This document shows, piece after piece, positions 28,754-38,577 of a stretch of 41,446 nucleotides of DNA. The DNA is from Parvibaculaceae bacterium (lineage in GTDB: Bacteria; Pseudomonadota; Alphaproteobacteria; Parvibaculales; Parvibaculaceae). A model generated the notes under the pieces. It did no database searches. It saw only the letters and a list, made by a program, of their open reading frames with translations, and had not been told where the DNA came from. The stretch is from the NCBI GenBank assembly GCA_029209985.1, contig JARGNZ010000028.1:1-41446 (forward strand), read 5' to 3'. A program made the translations under genes and the position numbers. Position 1 is the first letter of the stretch; each line of letters starts with the position of its first letter.

Positions 28754-28771
28754 ATTACCAGGGTATCAGTA

Positions 28772-28873
28772 GCTAGGGTTCCGGCCGAGACATCGGTGAC
28801 TGGTCCAAGAGCTACAGCCTAACTGGTTACAGTGGTTAGGTACACGGAGGGATAAAAACCCGGGAGGTCTAGC
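28772..28873 (+). promoter_or_regulatory. Guanidine-I (ykkC) riboswitch aptamer
   Basis: The segment carries the conserved elements of the ykkC/guanidine-I aptamer in order. CTAGGGTTCCGG is at the 5' side, with a CCGA/TCGG hairpin and the ACTGGTCCAAGAG block at about 28798-28811. A CCTAAC/GTTAGG stem and the ACACGGAGGGATAAAAACCC block follow, then CGGGAGG. P1 is GCTAG (28772-28776) with CTAGC (28869-28873). It lies 72 bases upstream of a periplasmic binding protein gene that starts a guanidine-type nitrogen operon, exactly the context known for this class. Sequence and context agree, so this is a confident call. Confidence 0.93.
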
Positions 28874-28936
28874 GCGCTTGGCTAAATCCCGCGATATATC
28901 CCGTCGCGAAAGCCAGTCTCCTAGACCAAAAAGGAG
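28866..28936 (+). promoter_or_regulatory. Expression platform of the guanidine-I riboswitch
   Basis: GGTCTAG (28866-28872), which overlaps the 3' strand of P1, can instead pair with CTAGACC (28921-28927). Nested stems TGGCT/AGCCA (28879-28883 with 28911-28915) and CGCGA/TCGCG (28890-28894 with 28904-28908) support one long alternative hairpin. CTCCT (28918-28922) can also pair with the ribosome site AGGAG (28932-28936). These pairings exclude one another, so translational control is likely. No U tract follows. Confidence 0.65.
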
Positions 28937-28945
28937 TACAGGCCT

Positions 28946-30016
28946 ATGAAACGCGTAACTTTGCTTTTTGCTTCACTCATGACATGTCTTAGTTTGACCT
29001 TGGGCGCTGGTGTTGCCAATGCGGAAGAGAAAACTCAATTTAAGCTCGCTTGGTCCATCTATGTTGGATGGATGCCTTGGGGATGGGCTGAAGATCAAGG
29101 CATCGTCGATAAGTGGGCCGATAAATACGGCATTGAAATCGACGTCGTACAATTCAACGACTACATTGAATCCATCAATCAATACACCGCTGGTGGGTTT
29201 GACGCTGTCACAGCCACCAATATGGATGTGTTGGCCATTCCGTCCGTTGGCGGCGTAGATACCACGGCTTTGATCGTTGGTGACTTTTCAAACGGCAATG
29301 ATGCGATCATCCTAAAAGACAATGAGACGTTGGACGCGCTTGCAGGTCAGAACGTCAACCTGGTGGAGCTTTCCGTTTCCCACTACTTGCTCGCCCGCGC
29401 GCTTGAAACTGTTGGTAAATCTGAAAAAGATCTCACAGTTGTCAATACGTCTGATGCAGACATGATTGCAGCCTTCCAATCTGAAGATGTGACGGCGGTT
29501 GCCACCTGGAACCCATTGGTCGCTGAAATTCTCGCCATGCCCGGTGCGCACAAAGTCTTCGATTCATCCGATATTCCCGGTGAAATCATCGACCTAACGG
29601 CTGTGAACACACAAACCCTCAGCGACAACCCTGCGTTTGGTAAAGCGCTCGCGGGCGCTTGGTATGAGACCATGGCGATTATGGCCTCAGACACGCCTGA
29701 AGGGGCAGAAGCACGCGCCGCCATGGGGGCAGCCTCTGGAACAGACCTTGCGGGCTACGACTTCCAACTTGCCTCCACGCAAATGTTCTACGCGCCGGCG
29801 GATGCTGTCGCCTTCACAACCTCCCCAGACATTTCCACAACCATGGACGCTGTGCGGACCTTCTTATTTGACCGTGGCCTGCTTGGCGAGGGCGCGCCCT
29901 CTGTGGATGTTGTCGGGATTGCGTTCCCAGATGGCACCGTACTGGGCGACAAGGGGAACGTAAAAATGCGTTTTAATTCTGAGTACATGAGCATGGCTGC
30001 TGACGGCAGCTTGTAA
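28946..30016 (+). CDS. ABC transporter periplasmic binding protein (NitT/TauT family), probable guanidine binder
   Basis: A 356-residue exported protein. A signal peptide of about 26 residues (GVANA-EE) is followed by FKLAWSIYVGWMPWGWAEDQGI, a typical opening of NitT/TauT-type binding proteins. A two-lobe body has GGFDAVTATNMDVLAIP and TWNPLVAEIL. Homologues in such clusters are commonly labelled urea transporters. The upstream guanidine-I riboswitch and downstream carboxyguanidine deiminase genes make guanidine or a guanidine derivative the better substrate guess. AGGAG lies nine bases before the ATG and may be masked by the riboswitch. It is the first gene of the operon and is 43 bases before the permease. 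Confidence 0.88.
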   Translation: MKRVTLLFASLMTCLSLTLGAGVANAEEKTQFKLAWSIYVGWMPWGWAEDQGIVDKWADKYGIEIDVVQFNDYIESINQYTAGGFDAVTATNMDVLAIPSVGGVDTTALIVGDFSNGNDAIILKDNETLDALAGQNVNLVELSVSHYLLARALETVGKSEKDLTVVNTSDADMIAAFQSEDVTAVATWNPLVAEILAMPGAHKVFDSSDIPGEIIDLTAVNTQTLSDNPAFGKALAGAWYETMAIMASDTPEGAEARAAMGAASGTDLAGYDFQLASTQMFYAPADAVAFTTSPDISTTMDAVRTFLFDRGLLGEGAPSVDVVGIAFPDGTVLGDKGNVKMRFNSEYMSMAADGSL

Positions 30017-30059: not shown

Positions 30060-30905
30060 ATGCCCGAAGCGACATCGCAAAAAGTGCGACTGATCAACAA
30101 ACGACCCAACCAAGCCGGAGGGCGGCTGCTGATGCTGCTGCCCTTCGCCCTTCTGCTGATCGCTTATGCGGTTGGCTCTGAAATCCGTTTGTCCGACAAT
30201 CCCAACGACAAACTTCTACCAAGCTTCCCCACACTTTATGAAGCTGTGCAACGCATGGCTTTTGAACCAGACAAACGAACAGGCAATTATCTGCTTTGGC
30301 AAGATACTGTCGCCAGTCTGATGCGCCTCAGCATTGGTGTTTTGGTGGCTACCCTCATGGGCAGCATTGTGGGCATTGCTGTGGGGTTGATCCCTTACGT
30401 CAATCGAACAATGTCGGCGTTCATCTCCGTTCTAGCGATGATCCCGCCGCTTGCGGTCTTACCCATTCTCTTCATTACCTTTGGACTTGGAGAGCTGGCT
30501 AAAATCGTGCTGATCGTTTTTGGCATCGCCCCCTTTATGATGCGCGATATCGCGCTCAGGGTTGGCGAATTGCCGTCAGAACAAATTGTAAAGGCGCAAA
30601 CTTTAGGGGCCTCCACGTGGCATATCGCATGGCGCATTGTGCTGCCACAAATGTGGCCACGTATTATTGATGCGTTGCGTTTGTCGCTGGGCACCGCTTG
30701 GCTGTTCCTCATTGCAGCAGAAGCGATTGCCGCACAAAGCGGCCTTGGGTATAGGATTTTCCTTTTACGCAGATACCTCGCGATGGATGTCATCCTGCCT
30801 TATGTCGCGTGGATTACGTTTCTCGCTGTGCTCTTCGACTACACATTGCAAAAATTTCAAATCATCGCATTCCCTTGGTTTGCTGTAGGGAGGTCGTCTG
30901 AATGA
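30060..30905 (+). CDS. ABC transporter permease (NitT/TauT family)
   Basis: A 281-residue inner-membrane protein with about six helices. The first is at about 24-40. Later ones include GVLVATLMGSIVGIAVGLIP in part and MIPPLAVLPILFITFGLG, and the last precedes IAFPWFAVG. The EAA-type coupling loop (EQIVKAQTLGASTWHIAWRIVLP in part, about 178-200) contacts the ATPase. It forms the membrane channel of the importer with the adjacent binding protein and ATPase. Its stop overlaps the ATPase start by four bases (ATGA). Substrate is inferred from the operon, not from the permease itself. Confidence 0.9.
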   Translation: MPEATSQKVRLINKRPNQAGGRLLMLLPFALLLIAYAVGSEIRLSDNPNDKLLPSFPTLYEAVQRMAFEPDKRTGNYLLWQDTVASLMRLSIGVLVATLMGSIVGIAVGLIPYVNRTMSAFISVLAMIPPLAVLPILFITFGLGELAKIVLIVFGIAPFMMRDIALRVGELPSEQIVKAQTLGASTWHIAWRIVLPQMWPRIIDALRLSLGTAWLFLIAAEAIAAQSGLGYRIFLLRRYLAMDVILPYVAWITFLAVLFDYTLQKFQIIAFPWFAVGRSSE

Positions 30906-31684
30906 CCCAAGTCAGCGTTCAAAACCTTTGGATGGAATATGGCGATCAAGTTGTCCTAGAGCAGGTCAATTTTGAGGTCGAAACCCATTCCTTTGTTTCT
31001 ATTGTTGGCCCCTCTGGTTGTGGCAAATCCACTTTATTACGCCTCTTACTCAGTCAGGAACATGCGACCCGAGGGGAGATCTTGGTCGATGGTGCTCCGC
31101 TTCCCCTTAATCCAGATCCTGATCGCGGAGTTGTGTTTCAAAAATATTCTGTCTTCCCGCACCTCACCGCGTTGGAAAATGTGGTGCTTGGACTGGAGCT
31201 TGAGCAAGGTGGCCTCTTTGGTCGGTTACACGGTAAAGCAAAACGCCGCGCTAAAGCAGAAGCCCTGCATCACCTTGAAGGGGTTGGTTTGAAAGACTCT
31301 GCCCACAAATACCCTGCCTCTCTTTCTGGCGGTATGCAGCAGCGTTTGGCCATTGCGCAGGCTCTCATCAAAAAGCCGCGCATCTTGTTACTCGACGAAC
31401 CTTTTGGCGCGCTCGATCCCGGCATTCGTTCTGAAGTGCATGACCTCATGTTGCGCCTGTGGTGGGAAACCAAGATGACCGTCTTCATGGTCACTCACGA
31501 CTTAAAGGAAGCCTTTTATTTGGGCACCCGTGTCATTGCGTTGGATAGAACCCGCAAACGTGAAGAAGAAAAAGAACGCTACGGGGCCTCGATCATTTTT
31601 GACACCCCATCAGAGCCCGCACCGATCATACAAGAATTAGCGGCGGAGGCGGAGACTGATACGGAGACAAATCAGAACACCTAA
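30902..31684 (+). CDS. ABC transporter ATP-binding protein (NitT/TauT family)
   Basis: A 260-residue ABC ATPase. The Walker A is GPSGCGKST (36-44) and the Q-loop VFQKYSVFPH. The signature is LSGGMQQRLAIAQAL, the Walker B ILLLDEPFGALDP and the H-loop VMVTHD. It powers the importer encoded by the two genes before it. The ATG overlaps the permease stop, giving coupled translation. A 112-base gap follows before the deiminase genes, and that gap holds a second riboswitch-like structure. The C-terminal tail beyond residue 235 is acidic and variable. Confidence 0.92.
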   Translation: MTQVSVQNLWMEYGDQVVLEQVNFEVETHSFVSIVGPSGCGKSTLLRLLLSQEHATRGEILVDGAPLPLNPDPDRGVVFQKYSVFPHLTALENVVLGLELEQGGLFGRLHGKAKRRAKAEALHHLEGVGLKDSAHKYPASLSGGMQQRLAIAQALIKKPRILLLDEPFGALDPGIRSEVHDLMLRLWWETKMTVFMVTHDLKEAFYLGTRVIALDRTRKREEEKERYGASIIFDTPSEPAPIIQELAAEAETDTETNQNT

Positions 31685-31692
31685 TCAACAAA

Positions 31693-31752
31693 GCTGGGAC
31701 GACCCGGCGTCTGCTTCTTCAAGCATATTCAATACGGTTCAGGACGACCTGG
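31693..31752 (+). promoter_or_regulatory. Candidate guanidine-II (mini-ykkC) riboswitch inside the operon
   Basis: Two short hairpins both carry the loop ACGA. The first is GCTGGG-ACGA-CCCGGC (31693-31708), six pairs including one G-U. The second is TCAGG-ACGA-CCTGG (31739-31752), five pairs including one G-U. Paired hairpins with ACGR tetraloops closed by G-C pairs are the defining feature of guanidine-II riboswitches. The 30-base linker holds a small GCTT-CTTC-AAGC hairpin. The structure ends 44 bases before the ATG of the first DUF1989 gene. Its place in a guanidine operon strongly supports the call; the long linker is the main doubt. Confidence 0.72.
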
Positions 31753-31796
31753 CATTTTGGCGGACCCTTTCCGCTTCAAACGAGTTGGAGAAACTG

Positions 31797-32546
31797 ATGA
31801 CCAAACACTCTTCATCCCTCAGTGAAGACATTATTCCCGGCGGGGCGCACTGGTCGCTCACAGTCAAAGCGGGCCTTACCCTGCGCCTTACAGATATTGA
31901 AGGAGATGGCAATGTCGGCATGTTGTTCTACAATCCGGCAAACCTGTTGGAACGCTACAACGCCCCCGACACCTTAAAATGCCAACACACCTTCAAACTT
32001 GGCACAGGCACGTGTCTTTATTCAGACATGGGACGCATTTTTTGTTCTGTCATTGGCGGCACAGTTGCATGGCACGACACCGTCTGCGGCACGTCCACCC
32101 GCCAAAGTATTGAAAAAAAATGGCGTCCTGTTTCCTATCAGATGGGCCGGAACGAGCGCACGCAAAATGGCCGCGACAGCTTTCTTGTGGAAGGGGCTAA
32201 ATACGGACTGGGCAAAAGAGATCTTGCCGCAAACGTGAATTGGTTCAGCAAGGTGGCCCCTGATGCCGAGGGCAATCTGGGGTTTGTTTCTGGCAACTCA
32301 AAAGCAGGTGATTATGTTGACCTGCGATTTGAGATGGACACGCTGGTGGTTTTACACAGCTGCCCGCACCCTCTGAACAGCAGCAAAACTTATCCGCGCA
32401 AGCCGATTAAATTGGAACTTCTGGAAGCTGAGCCGGTTTCGATGACGGATATCTGTCGCACCAGTCGGCCCGAAAATATACGCGGTTTTGAAAACACCGA
32501 AACCTATGTACGCCATACAACACCGTCATCTTCAGGAGGTCATTGA
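31797..32546 (+). CDS. Carboxyguanidine deiminase subunit (DUF1989; urea-carboxylase-associated protein 1 type)
   Basis: A 249-residue DUF1989 protein. It has the opening [60 protein letters not shown], and [24 protein letters not shown] with a conserved Cys189. DUF1989 pairs next to urea carboxylase, long called urea-carboxylase-associated proteins, are known to form a carboxyguanidine deiminase that yields allophanate and ammonia. The second subunit follows two bases later. The start is the ATG with GGAG six bases upstream; a TTG four codons earlier is less likely. A guanidine-II-like structure precedes it. Confidence 0.88.
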
Positions 32547-32548
32547 GC

Positions 32549-33193
32549 ATGATTAAGGAAAGCACACTTTCTCCTGAGACAGCGCTTCTACGCGAAGTGG
32601 TTGGCGCGGGTGATTATTGGATGCATGAGGTCAAGCAAGGTCAGACATTGCGCATTTTAGACCTTGAAGGAAATCAAGCAGCCGACACGCTTTTTTATAA
32701 CGCCCATGACACCGCAGAACGCTATAGCGCGATCGACACCATTCGAGAGCAAGGCAATGTCTACCTAACGGCGGGCACAAAGCTTCTCTCGACTGAGGGC
32801 AATGTAATGCTAGAGATCACGGCCGACACGTGTGGACGCCACGACACTTTAGGCGGTGCCTGCGCAACTGAATCCAACACGGTGCGTTATGCGCTGGACA
32901 AAAAGTGTATGCACGCCTGCCGAGATAGTTGGTTATTGGCCGTTGCGGAGAATGAACACTTCGGCATGAGCAAGCGGGACATCACGCACAACATTAATTT
33001 TTTTATGAATGTGCCTGTCACCCCCGACGGCGGTTTGACATTTGAAGACGGCATTAGCGGTGCGGGAAAATATGTCGAGATGCGGGCCGAGATGGACACA
33101 ATCGTGCTTCTCTCAAATTGCCCACAACTCAACAATCCGTGCAATGCCTATAACCCCACTCCGGTTGAAATGCTGGTCTGGGATAAGAATTGA
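32549..33193 (+). CDS. Carboxyguanidine deiminase subunit (DUF1989; urea-carboxylase-associated protein 2 type)
   Basis: A 214-residue DUF1989 protein. Family blocks are [75 protein letters not shown] and [19 protein letters not shown], with Cys191 in the conserved NCPQ motif. With the preceding gene it should form the heteromeric deiminase of the guanidine pathway. The ATG is preceded by a strong AGGAGGT at eight bases, so it is preferred to a TTG six bases earlier that overlaps the previous stop. The carboxylase gene follows after seven bases. Confidence 0.9.
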
Positions 33194-33200
33194 GGGCACC

Positions 33201-36200
33201 ATGTTCAAATCTATTCTCATCGCCAACCGGGGCGAAATAGCCCGACGTGTCATCAAAACTGTGCAGGCTATGGGCTTGCGTGCTGTCGCGATTTATTCAG
33301 AAGCAGACCGCCACGCGCTTCATGTGCATGATGCGGATGATGCTTTCTGTGTCGGGCCTGCCCCGGTTTCAGAAAGCTACCTAAACATTGATGCCATCTT
33401 AAAAATCTGCCTCGACCACAAAATCGATGCCGTGCATCCCGGCTATGGCTTTCTCAGCGAAAATGCCTCCTTTGCTGAAACCCTGAGCGCACATGGGATC
33501 GCTTTTATCGGCCCCTCACCGGCGCAGCTTCGCGATTTCGGCATCAAGCACACCGCACGGGCGCTTGCGCAAGAGGCCAGTGTGCCGCTTTTGCCGGGCA
33601 CCGATTTGCTTGCCGACCTTGAGGACGCGTTAGGCGCTGCGGAGCGCATTGGCTATCCTGTTATGCTAAAAAGTACCGCTGGGGGTGGCGGTATCGGCTT
33701 GCAACTCTGTCAGAACAGCGACGCGCTGCGCCGAGCCTTTGACACTGTGCAACGCCAAGCGCAAGCCAACTTTGGCAACGCGGGTGTTTTTCTGGAAAAA
33801 TTTGTCGCCACCGCACGTCACATTGAAGTGCAAATTTTTGGCGATGGGGCAGGCGGCGTTGTCACCCTTGGAGAACGCGATTGTTCTTTGCAACGACGCA
33901 ATCAAAAAATTGTCGAAGAAACCCCAGCCCCCGGCCTCAGCGCACAACAACAACAGGCGTTGGCTGATGCGGCCCGCCGCCTCGGTGAAAAAGTAAACTA
34001 TGTCTCGGCTGGCACTGTAGAATTTATCTACGATATGTCTGACAATAATTTTTACTTCCTCGAAGTAAATACGCGTCTGCAAGTCGAGCATGGCATCACC
34101 GAAGCTGTCTTTAATGTGGACCTTGTCGAGTGGATGATCCGGCAAGCGGGGGGCACCATGCCCGCGCTCGACACCCTGTCGCTCATACGTTCAGGTGCTG
34201 CGATAGAGGTGCGTATCAATGCAGAAGACCCCGCCCGCGATTTCCTACCAAGTGTTGGCCGCCTCACGGAGGTACGCTTTCCCGACGATGCGCGGGTTGA
34301 TACGTGGATTGAAACAGGCACGCATATCACCTCACACTATGACTCGCTGTTGGGCAAACTCATTGTCACAGGCGCGTCGCGCGCAGAGGCCCTGAGCAAC
34401 CTCCAGCAGGCGCTTAAAGAGACAGCCCTCTACGGCATTGAAAATAATTTAGATTATCTCAGCGTCATCGCCTCCTCTTCTATGTTTGAGACAGCTGCTG
34501 TCAGCACCCATGCGCTGGCGCACTTAGACTACCAACCACACCGCATTGAAGTGCTGTCTCCGGGTGCGCAATCGACGGTACAAGATCTACCGGGCCGCAT
34601 TGGCTATTGGGCTGTTGGCGTGCCCCCGAGCGGTCCCATGGACGCGCTCTCGTTTCAACTTGCAAACCGGCTGGTCGGCAACGCCGCTGAAACCGCAGCC
34701 CTTGAATGCACACTGACCGGGCCTACTCTCAAGTTCTATGCCCCGACGACCATTGCGCTTACCGGCGCTCACATGGGTGCAAAACTGAATGGCACCCCTG
34801 TGGCCCATCACGTTGCCCTCTCAGTTCCTGCGGACAGTATTTTAGAACTTGGCGAGATTGAAGGGGCGGGTAATAGAACCTATTTAGCGGTGCGCCACGG
34901 TATCGACGCCCCTCTTTATCTGGGTAGTCGCTCCACCTTCGTGCTTGGGCAATTTGGCGGGCATGGGACAGGTGCTTTACGTACGGGCAGCGTGCTTCGG
35001 ATAAACCGGGACGGTGCCGTGTCTGCTCCCTTGGATCACATTGCCCCTGACAGCAAGCCCGCCCTCACACGGGAATGGGAATTGGGTGTGCTCTATGGTC
35101 CTCACGGGGCGCCGGACTTTTTCACCGAAAGCGACATCGACACTTTCTTCTCTCACCCCTATGAAGTGCACTTTAACAGCGCACGAACAGGTGTGCGGCT
35201 TGTCGGCCCTAAGCCTGACTGGGCGCGCAAAGATGGGGGAGAAGCAGGTCTTCATCCCTCTAATATCCATGACAACGCCTACGCCGTCGGGACCATCGAT
35301 TTTACCGGCGACATGCCCATCATTTTGGGACCCGATGGTCCAAGCCTTGGCGGCTTCGTCTGCCCGGCCACTTTAGCGGACGCCGAAAAATGGAAAATGG
35401 GACAGCTTCGCCCCGGCGATACCGTGCGCTTCAAACGGCTTACCGTTGCCAACGCATTGGCCTTGCAAACCGCGCAGGCTGATATTCTTGCGGAACCAGA
35501 TCGAGTGCCCCCCACCAGAGGCCTCCTTCGCAGTAAGTTACCAGAAACAGACAGTGCGATACTTGGGCGTGGGATGACGCACGGCATTCAAATTTGTTAC
35601 CGCCGCGCAGGCAGCTCTTCCCTTCTGGTGGAGATGGGCGATCTTGTTTTGGACTTCAAACTTCGTTTCCAAGTCACCGCGCTTATGACATGGCTTGAGG
35701 CGGAGGCACCGGCTGGGATTATTGACCTGACGCCGGGCATTCGCTCTCTCCAGGTTCATTATGACCCCACGGTGCTTTCTACGGATCGATTGCTTGCGCT
35801 GTTAAAAGCAAGCGAAACAGAAATGCCCCGAGCAGAAGATGTGGTCGTGCCAAGCCGTACTGTCCACCTGCCTTTGAGCTGGCGCGATGAGCAAACCGAG
35901 TTGGCAATGCGCAAGTACCAAGAGCTTGTGTATGAAAAAGCCCCCTGGTGTCCGTCTAATGTCGAATTTATTCGGCGCATCAACGGCCTGCCTGATGAGC
36001 AAGCTGTGAAAGACATTATCTTTGATGCCGATTACATGGTTCTAGGGCTGGGTGATGTGTATCTGGGTGCCCCGGTTGCCACACCGCTTGACCCGCGCCA
36101 CCGGCTGGTGACGACGAAATACAATCCTGCCCGCACATGGACCCCAGAAAATGCGGTCGGCATCGGGGGGGCCTATATGTGTGTTTACGGCATGGAGGGC

Positions 36201-36809
36201 CCAGGCGGCTATCAACTCTTTGGACGCACGGTGCAGGTCTGGAGCACATGGCAACAACGAGGAAGTTTTGAACAAGGCACCCCGTGGTTGTTACGTTTTT
36301 TTGATCGCATCAAATTCTTTGAGGTCAGCTCTGAAGAACTTGCCGATGCAAGAGACGCGTTCACGAATGGCAGTTACACAGTGCAGATTGACGAAGGCAC
36401 GTTCACACTCAGTGAGCATGAGGCGCTTCTTAAAGCAGAAGCCCCATCCATTGCCCGTTTCAAAACTCAACAGCAAACGGCCTTTGAAGCAGAACGCACT
36501 CGGTGGCGGGAAAGCGGCTTAGATGCCGAGCTGATCGACGATGTTTTTGAAATCGCAGACAACAGCGTTGATATGCCGGACAACGGATTTGCCGTTGATG
36601 CCTCCCTTCCGGGTAGTGTTTGGAAAATACTCGTTAAACCAGGCGAAACAGTTGAGGCGGGGGCACCTGTCATGATCCTTGAGAGTATGAAAATGGAGCT
36701 TGAAGTCACCACACCCAAAACGGGCATCGTTCACAGTGTTCTTTGTAAACCCGGACAAACCATAGAGGCAGGACAAGCGGTCTTGGTAATGACACATGAT
36801 GAAAATTGA
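33201..36809 (+). CDS. Biotin-dependent urea/guanidine carboxylase
   Basis: A 1202-residue multidomain enzyme. The biotin carboxylase part spans about 1-445 (ILIANRGEIARRVI, KSTAGGGGIGLQL, EVNTRLQVEHGITE). A KipA/AHS2-type carboxyltransferase half starts near 448 (VLSPGAQSTVQDLPG), and an AHS1-type half near 800. A C-terminal biotinyl domain has ESMKMELE with biotinyl Lys1164. This architecture is that of urea carboxylase. Members encoded with DUF1989 pairs and guanidine riboswitches prefer guanidine, forming carboxyguanidine from bicarbonate and ATP. Seven bases follow the deiminase gene, and the 3' end overlaps the allophanate hydrolase by 14 bases. Guanidine preference is inferred from context. 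Confidence 0.92.
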   Translation: MFKSILIANRGEIARRVIKTVQAMGLRAVAIYSEADRHALHVHDADDAFCVGPAPVSESYLNIDAILKICLDHKIDAVHPGYGFLSENASFAETLSAHGIAFIGPSPAQLRDFGIKHTARALAQEASVPLLPGTDLLADLEDALGAAERIGYPVMLKSTAGGGGIGLQLCQNSDALRRAFDTVQRQAQANFGNAGVFLEKFVATARHIEVQIFGDGAGGVVTLGERDCSLQRRNQKIVEETPAPGLSAQQQQALADAARRLGEKVNYVSAGTVEFIYDMSDNNFYFLEVNTRLQVEHGITEAVFNVDLVEWMIRQAGGTMPALDTLSLIRSGAAIEVRINAEDPARDFLPSVGRLTEVRFPDDARVDTWIETGTHITSHYDSLLGKLIVTGASRAEALSNLQQALKETALYGIENNLDYLSVIASSSMFETAAVSTHALAHLDYQPHRIEVLSPGAQSTVQDLPGRIGYWAVGVPPSGPMDALSFQLANRLVGNAAETAALECTLTGPTLKFYAPTTIALTGAHMGAKLNGTPVAHHVALSVPADSILELGEIEGAGNRTYLAVRHGIDAPLYLGSRSTFVLGQFGGHGTGALRTGSVLRINRDGAVSAPLDHIAPDSKPALTREWELGVLYGPHGAPDFFTESDIDTFFSHPYEVHFNSARTGVRLVGPKPDWARKDGGEAGLHPSNIHDNAYAVGTIDFTGDMPIILGPDGPSLGGFVCPATLADAEKWKMGQLRPGDTVRFKRLTVANALALQTAQADILAEPDRVPPTRGLLRSKLPETDSAILGRGMTHGIQICYRRAGSSSLLVEMGDLVLDFKLRFQVTALMTWLEAEAPAGIIDLTPGIRSLQVHYDPTVLSTDRLLALLKASETEMPRAEDVVVPSRTVHLPLSWRDEQTELAMRKYQELVYEKAPWCPSNVEFIRRINGLPDEQAVKDIIFDADYMVLGLGDVYLGAPVATPLDPRHRLVTTKYNPARTWTPENAVGIGGAYMCVYGMEGPGGYQLFGRTVQVWSTWQQRGSFEQGTPWLLRFFDRIKFFEVSSEELADARDAFTNGSYTVQIDEGTFTLSEHEALLKAEAPSIARFKTQQQTAFEAERTRWRESGLDAELIDDVFEIADNSVDMPDNGFAVDASLPGSVWKILVKPGETVEAGAPVMILESMKMELEVTTPKTGIVHSVLCKPGQTIEAGQAVLVMTHDEN

Positions 36810-38577
36810 CTTGCAAATTGACGCACTGGCGCAAGCCTATTTGACGGGCGACCTTACCCCCGCAGATGTGATCAACGATGTATATGACCGCATTGAAGCG
36901 TGTCCTGATCCATCCATTTGGATCAGCCTTCTTCCTCGGGAGGATGCATTAGCCACTGCGGTCTCTCTTGGCGTGCCCCATCCAGACAAGCCGCTCTTTG
37001 GTGTGCCCTTTGCTGTGAAAGACAATATCGATTGCACAGAGACAGCCACAACGGCCGGATGCCCTTCCTTTGCTTATCAGCCAAGAGCAGATGCCACAGT
37101 GGTCGCACGGTTGCGCGCAGCGGGGGCGATTTTGATTGGGAAAACAAATCTGGATCAATTTGCCACCGGCCTTGTGGGCACACGCTCCCCTTACGGCGTG
37201 CCCCGGTCTGCGTTTAACGATGCCTATATTTCTGGTGGCTCCAGCAGCGGTTCTGCTGTTGCTGTTGCCAGAGGGTTGGTGTCTTTTGCCTTAGGCACAG
37301 ACACCGCCGGATCGGGCCGCGTACCGGCTGGATTTAACAACATCGTCGGGTGGAAGCCGACCCGTGGCTTACTGAGCACTTATGGGGTTGTGCCTGCGTG
37401 CCGGTCTTTAGACTGCGTGAGTGTTTTTGCAGGGTCGTGCGGCGCTGCAGCCCTCGTCAAAAAAGTAAGCGCAGGCTTTGATCCAAAAGACCCCTTTTCT
37501 CGCCCCGCTGAAAGCTCTCCCCTTGTGGGCGATACGTTTGCTTTCGGCGTTCTCAATTCTGATAGTCGGATCTTCTTTGGTGATGCTGGGAGCGAGCAGC
37601 TTTATAATCAATCGATTGAGGTCTTGCAGGCGCTGGGCGGCACCCCGGTGGACATTGATTATACCCCCTTCGCTGAAATGGCTGAGCTGTTATATACGGG
37701 ACCTTGGGTGGCGGAACGCTATGCTGCTGTCGGTGATCATGTTACGCTGGCCCATGGTGACATTGATCCGACGGTTGCCCACATTGTTTCCCACGCGAAT
37801 GCACATTCGGCTGTTGATGCTTTTAAGGGGCAATACAGACTTTCTGAACTACAGCGCCTCATCGATCAGACATGGCACCAGATGGATGTTTTCCTTCTGC
37901 CCACCTCGCCCACAACCTATACCGTTGAGGAGATTGCCGCAGACCCCATCACACTTAATTCCCGTTTAGGAACCTACACCAACTTTGTGAACCTTGCAGA
38001 CTGCGCGGCCCTTGCTGTACCGGCTGGCTTTGTGGATGACTTACCGCGTGGTGTCACCCTTGTGGGCCCTGCCTTTACGGATGATGATTTGTTGGCACTG
38101 GGCGATCGACTGCATCGCCAACTTCTTCCCGCCCCTCACATTGGTGCCACTGATACGCCGGTGTGTCCCTCCCCTTCTCTCCCGAAGAGCGGCATTCCCT
38201 TGGCCGTTGTCGGCGCGCACCTCACTGGGCAGCCCCTCAACCACCAGTTAACGGACCTCAATGCCAAGCACGTGGCCACAACGACAACCAGCGATGCCTA
38301 TCGTCTTTATGCCTTGAACAATACAACACCAGCCAAGCCCGGTTTGGCACGGGCGCAAGACGGTGTAAAAATCGCCGTCGAGGTATGGACCTTGAGTGAC
38401 GCTGCATTCGGTCGCTTCTGCGCCATGGTCCCCGCCCCTTTGGGCATCGGCAATGTTGAGCTTGCCGATGGCACATGGGTTAAAGGGTTCATCTGCGAAA
38501 ACATCGCCCTTGGTGATGCCACAGACATCACCACTCATGGTGGTTGGAAAGCTTACCTGGCGCTTGCGAATTCTTAA
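36796..38577 (+). CDS. atzF: Allophanate hydrolase
   Basis: A 593-residue amidase-signature enzyme that hydrolyses allophanate to ammonia and CO2, the last step of guanidine or urea carboxylase pathways. The Ser-cisSer-Lys triad is Lys75 (FAVKDNID), Ser149 (SGGSSSGSA) and Ser173 (TDTAGSGRVPA), with the same spacing as in characterised AtzF. A C-terminal domain of about 130 residues (from PLAVVGAHLTGQPLNHQL) is also typical of the full-length form and may process the intermediate product. The ATG overlaps the carboxylase end; a second ATG follows directly. Last gene of the operon, with a hairpin after it. Confidence 0.94.
   Translation: MMKIDLQIDALAQAYLTGDLTPADVINDVYDRIEACPDPSIWISLLPREDALATAVSLGVPHPDKPLFGVPFAVKDNIDCTETATTAGCPSFAYQPRADATVVARLRAAGAILIGKTNLDQFATGLVGTRSPYGVPRSAFNDAYISGGSSSGSAVAVARGLVSFALGTDTAGSGRVPAGFNNIVGWKPTRGLLSTYGVVPACRSLDCVSVFAGSCGAAALVKKVSAGFDPKDPFSRPAESSPLVGDTFAFGVLNSDSRIFFGDAGSEQLYNQSIEVLQALGGTPVDIDYTPFAEMAELLYTGPWVAERYAAVGDHVTLAHGDIDPTVAHIVSHANAHSAVDAFKGQYRLSELQRLIDQTWHQMDVFLLPTSPTTYTVEEIAADPITLNSRLGTYTNFVNLADCAALAVPAGFVDDLPRGVTLVGPAFTDDDLLALGDRLHRQLLPAPHIGATDTPVCPSPSLPKSGIPLAVVGAHLTGQPLNHQLTDLNAKHVATTTTSDAYRLYALNNTTPAKPGLARAQDGVKIAVEVWTLSDAAFGRFCAMVPAPLGIGNVELADGTWVKGFICENIALGDATDITTHGGWKAYLALANS

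Follow-up and report, generated by a model that had tools for sequence, protein, structure and literature searches.

The window (the whole stretch of DNA analysed here, 41,446 bases) contains on its forward strand a run of genes for guanidine import and catabolism. At the head of this run lies a guanidine-I riboswitch aptamer (28762-28868; Rfam RF00442, 86.1 bits, gathering cut-off 63), which the initial annotation had already recognized from a position inside this match, 28772. The aptamer was the sole match over cut-offs in an Rfam search of the window, and a whole-genome Rfam search returned one guanidine-I copy. Between the aptamer and the first gene (28866-28945) no T-run terminator was seen, and a CUCCU shortly upstream can pair with the Shine-Dalgarno (SD) sequence AGGAG, which hints at translational over transcriptional control by this riboswitch. 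The first three genes encode an ABC transporter: a substrate-binding protein, likely of a guanidine importer (28946-30016; TIGR03427, 542.7 bits, cut-off 333.9), a permease (30060-30905; TauC/NtrB-like families, under their cut-offs) and an ATPase (30902-31684; ABC ATPase families, under equivalog cut-offs). After a gap of 112 nt, from the end of the ATPase gene at 31684 to the most likely start codon of cgdA, ATG 31797, follow cgdA (31797-32546; DUF1989, UAAP1, a carboxyguanidine deiminase subunit; TIGR03425, 312.4 bits, cut-off 205.95) and, overlapping it, cgdB (32543-33193; DUF1989, UAAP2; TIGR03424, 345.9 bits, cut-off 284.7). The run continues with the gca open reading frame for a guanidine carboxylase, annotated as urea carboxylase (33042-36809; TIGR02712, 1798 bits, cut-off 1303.85), whose annotated start is provisional, with a profile match from about 33204, and with an allophanate hydrolase gene (36796-38577; TIGR02713, 780.1 bits, cut-off 511.05). 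On the forward strand of the gap no promoter- or terminator-like site was found, counts being near the shuffle level.

The gap does contain the two hairpins with ACGA loops that had been noticed at first reading. The first, P1 (31693-31708; GCTGGG-ACGA-CCCGGC, loop 31699-31702), has a stem of 6 bp with one G-U pair, and the second, P2 (31739-31752; TCAGG-ACGA-CCTGG, loop 31744-31747), has a stem of 5 bp with a G-U as the outermost pair. Both were delimited from the sequence, from relatives and from the covariance model described below, and they are separated by a linker of 30 nt (31709-31738). As required for guanidine-II (mini-ykkC) riboswitches, ACGR loops with G-C closing pairs are found in the window, in its relatives and in an alignment of 45 elements. 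On both strands of the window, P1 and P2 are the only GACGRC hairpins with stems of at least 5 bp, while 200 dinucleotide shuffles of the window yielded no hairpin pair and on average 0.7 single hairpins. The first gene after the element, cgdA, provides the guanidine-gene context of Rfam family RF01068.

Covariance models gave a divided answer. The Rfam model RF01068 matched the window element only as a pair of half-hits scoring 11.6 and 10.8 bits, below its gathering cut-off of 32, also when the gap was searched alone; this is the result that the initial annotation had named as counting against its own assignment. In contrast, a covariance model built from 45 aligned paired-hairpin elements (R1), taken from 80 cgdA loci and from the genomes of relatives and excluding the window and its near relatives L003-L005, matched 31693-31753 when the window was searched unfiltered, with 28.3 bits (E 2e-4) against 5.4 bits for the next best match. 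The syntenic relatives L003-L005, likewise outside the model, scored 31.4-37.6 bits. Whole-genome counts with R1 are lower bounds because the fast search scored the window element below its full value. The Rfam miss is apparently due to the linker length of 30 nt: other long-linker guanidine-II copies scored 21.9-24.4 bits or gave split half-hits against the same cut-off of 32. Many alphaproteobacterial operons have the same element in front of cgdA, and some of these copies, such as those of L006 and L018, scored above the cut-off. Since this cut-off belongs to the database and not to biology, a score below it does not exclude membership. The Rfam guanidine-II model thus misses long-linker copies, and surveys built on it will undercount internal and tandem elements. 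One guanidine-II riboswitch over the cut-off was found in the whole genome by Rfam (G000:C49:143109-143157, L001 1501-1549; 33.8 bits). By eye, the gene behind it looks like a PACE-like efflux transporter gene. This copy belongs to the same class and genome as the window element, but it stands alone as the leader of a putative efflux gene and has a 19-nt linker, whereas the window element is internal with a linker of 30 nt.

Conservation was examined in the syntenic relatives, where, as had been anticipated for related genomes, both ACGR loops are preserved. GGGACGRCCC and CAGGACGACCTG are retained in these relatives, where a stem pair has changed from U-G to C-G and a loop base from A to G, the hairpin forms being GCCGGGACGGCCCGGC/T and CCAGGACGACCTGG, at a CgdA identity to the window of 67-68%. 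In three relatives, the alignment places the GGAG that serves as the SD of cgdA (31787-31790) and the ATG exactly at 31787 and 31797, with conserved spacing. In the 45-element alignment 93.9% of the cells pair and 9 of the 12 pairs vary on both sides, with a stem covariation score of 0.600 against 0.145 for shuffled and at most 0.148 for slid alignments, figures that are inflated because the hairpin scan that selected the elements demanded pairing. The location of the elements is free of this inflation: nearly all hairpin pairs on the forward strand of the 80 loci sit in two intergenic gaps of the operon.

The conserved pair of ACGR hairpins, the covariation across related operons and the place before cgdA in them, joined by the match to the independent model R1 and the survey of loci, uphold the guanidine-II identity proposed in the initial annotation. 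We conclude from this comparative evidence that 31693-31753 is very probably a guanidine-II riboswitch between the importer and the catabolic genes of one guanidine-I-headed operon. In line with the earlier reading of two classes in one operon, both lie on the same strand within one co-directional run (guanidine-I, substrate-binding protein, permease, ATPase, guanidine-II, cgdA, cgdB, guanidine carboxylase, allophanate hydrolase).

Other readings of the hairpins were weighed against this conclusion. Decay of an ancestral guanidine-II into a non-functional remnant would fit the lower R1 score of the window element (28.3 bits) relative to L003-L005 and the weak pairing in its linker (-3.3 kcal/mol), but all family-defining loop and closing bases are intact and both stems still pair despite the divergence of CgdA to 68% identity, which makes this reading very unlikely. 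Genes of one operon can be expressed at different levels through stable hairpins between them, and P1 and P2 could in principle act without guanidine, for instance by stabilizing the mRNA or directing its processing at the boundary of its transporter and catabolic portions. We regard this as equally improbable, because the ACGR loops are conserved, beyond what stem stability asks for, in two bacterial classes and at two different junctions of this operon, and because those of the homologous element of Vreelandella boliviensis bind guanidine (PMC12508155). That the gap is instead 5' coding sequence of cgdA, whose frame is open from 31641 and reads both ACGA loops as GAC GAC codons, so that the hairpins would be chance Asp-Asp codon pairs, is hardly credible and was rejected: the open stretch has no ATG, GTG or TTG before 31785, and the three syntenic relatives keep the hairpins, the GGAG and the ATG while carrying stop codons in the upstream cgdA frame and frame-breaking indels in the same stretch, which marks the element as RNA.

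In the guanidine-II family, guanidinium makes P1 and P2 kiss, and the linker carries a putative anti-SD sequence (PMC5486947, PMC9094411). By analogy, two guanidinium ions would bind in the window element upon kissing of its two ACGA loops, and the kissing would stretch or sequester the linker and so free the SD of cgdA. With the SD freed, cgdA would be translated more, as would the overlapping catabolic genes. The linker of the window contains UUCUUCAA, which can pair over 8 bp with UUGGAGAA covering the SD (p about 0.10 against shuffled linkers). Across loci the test for an anti-SD in the linker gave Fisher P-values of 0.04 before cgdA and 0.71 before gca, and a linker anti-SD as a general rule was rejected as not significant. 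Predicted accessibility at two SD bases rose from 0.12 to 0.27 and from 0.30 to 0.65 when the linker was placed in its own hairpin; it also rose with the linker masked. As three alternative folds of the window element lie within 1 kcal/mol of each other, folding picks no switch state, and with the unconvincing anti-SD test over all loci the expression platform of the window element is a putative one.

The hairpin within the linker (31712-31725; TGCTT-CTTC-AAGCA, -3.3 kcal/mol) has counterparts in long-linker relatives. Within the surveyed set, nearly all linkers of at least 24 nt fold one extra hairpin and those of 10-20 nt seldom do. Compared with dinucleotide shuffles, eight long linkers together gave a Fisher P-value of 4e-4, which is optimistic because they are not all phylogenetically independent; single values were weak (p 0.096 for the window), and the long linker of L109 showed no hairpin signal. 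Outside the extra hairpin, 11-16 nt of linker are left in six of the eight long-linker elements, like short linkers. In the guanidine-II riboswitch of G. violaceus a 14-nt linker must span 49 Å in the kissed state (PMC5486947), and a looped-out hairpin could accordingly leave the kissing geometry unchanged. We found no published description of an extra hairpin in long guanidine-II linkers. The published linker range of RF01068 is 7-40 nt (PMC7544219; structures in PMC5486947), so that the window element resembles this family in its two G+C-rich stems, its ACGR tetraloops and its linker length, and differs from it in the score below the Rfam cut-off and the third hairpin within the linker.

The initial annotation knew of no described operon with a guanidine-I head and an internal guanidine-II, but such operons are already published (PMC12508155, PMC12186494) and are common in our survey. 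In the gca operon of V. boliviensis, guanidine-I lies in the 5' UTR and guanidine-II between cgdB and gca, both were studied by in-line probing, and the apparent KD values for guanidine were 44 μM (guanidine-I) and 93 μM (guanidine-II) (Sinn et al. 2025, PMC12508155). This operon shares with that of the window the ABC importer, cgdA and cgdB, gca, allophanate hydrolase, the 5' guanidine-I and an internal guanidine-II, but it additionally has mgdH and mgdL. Moreover, guanidine-II gates gca onward in V. boliviensis, whereas the window copy, with its 30-nt linker and extra hairpin unlike the V. boliviensis element, lies ahead of cgdA, where the whole set of catabolic genes would be under its control; the cgdB-gca position, which it does not occupy, is not required of the wider dual-class kind. 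In Raoultella, Erwinia and Klebsiella the importer and carboxyguanidine deaminase are under guanidine-I and the carboxylase and hydrolase under guanidine-II (reviewed in PMC12186494). There, as in the window, the importer genes are under guanidine-I and the carboxylase under guanidine-II, but the deaminase is grouped with the importer, whereas in the window it is downstream of guanidine-II. For a guanidine-II before cgdA in alphaproteobacteria we found no published description in the part of the literature covered, and an earlier one is possible. The window operon is a further example of the published two-switch layout, which is widespread in the surveyed loci, and it adds an alphaproteobacterial case in which the switch boundary parts import from catabolism. 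Whether the operon as a whole is made, or to what extent, would be decided by the leading guanidine-I, while catabolism alone would come under a second, cooperative control through guanidine-II. The ordered induction put forward in the initial annotation, with import first and catabolism second, is a hypothesis.

A survey of other genomes, proposed in the initial annotation, did find both classes together, in 45 of 98 loci, a count to be read with many of the other loci ending short of the expected guanidine-I place; guanidine-I was called by sequence pattern, with Rfam confirmation for some loci. Guanidine-II lies directly before cgdA in 37 of the 98 loci, the window included (L095, with its element 1.9 kb upstream, was left out), and between cgdB and gca in 40. 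On the CgdA tree the guanidine-II site is strongly clustered, with 16 changes against 43.9 for shuffled sites and none of 200 shuffles as low. The cgdB-gca site is that of gammaproteobacteria and the pre-cgdA site mainly that of alphaproteobacteria, which include the clade of the window and L003-L005 (support 100/93) as well as another, distant CgdA clade. Sinn et al. (PMC12508155) leave for later the question of why a single operon senses the same ligand with two unrelated RNAs, and the two natural positions make it testable. Separately, two guanidine-I aptamers were observed in one operon at L037 (4472-4573 and 9717-9812, Rfam-confirmed) and at L054 (sequence pattern only), the first before the importer and the second directly before cgdA, where others have guanidine-II.

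Six leaders carry guanidine-I and guanidine-II directly in tandem, all before cgdA, with a long-linker guanidine-II about 70 nt after guanidine-I. They belong to Azospirillum (L028, 9703-9963; L029; L034; L035) and to the window's own family (L013, 1061-1323; L014). The guanidine-I of all four tandems tested (L013, L014, L028 and L035) was over the Rfam cut-off, and in L013, L014 and L035 the guanidine-II was under it, at 22-24 bits. Such sub-cut-off scores could be why a 2022 survey of tandem riboswitches saw no tandem arrangements for any guanidine class (PMC9481103). A strict tandem guanidine-I/guanidine-II pattern had no match in 385 genomes of the class, and the arrangement is thus rare or confined to few lineages. 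Where the flanks of the Azospirillum tandem loci are complete, the importer genes are found downstream, and a window-type order that lost its importer block would become such a tandem.

Taken jointly, these data are compatible with a reading that we offer tentatively, holding it slightly more doubtful than probable. The place of the internal guanidine-II would differ by bacterial class: in gammaproteobacteria it would lie before gca, and in alphaproteobacteria before cgdA, with the importer alone under guanidine-I and all catabolism under double control. Elements with long linkers would form a three-hairpin subtype whose linker hairpin carries or masks the anti-SD, and relocation of the importer genes would bring both classes together in a single leader, as a mixed-class tandem riboswitch for one ligand. 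Further ACGR hairpin pairs were seen on the minus strand, opposite to and upstream of the guanidine-I leader, in L023 (6681) and L078 (6572), and these are possibly the guanidine-II of a divergent gene.
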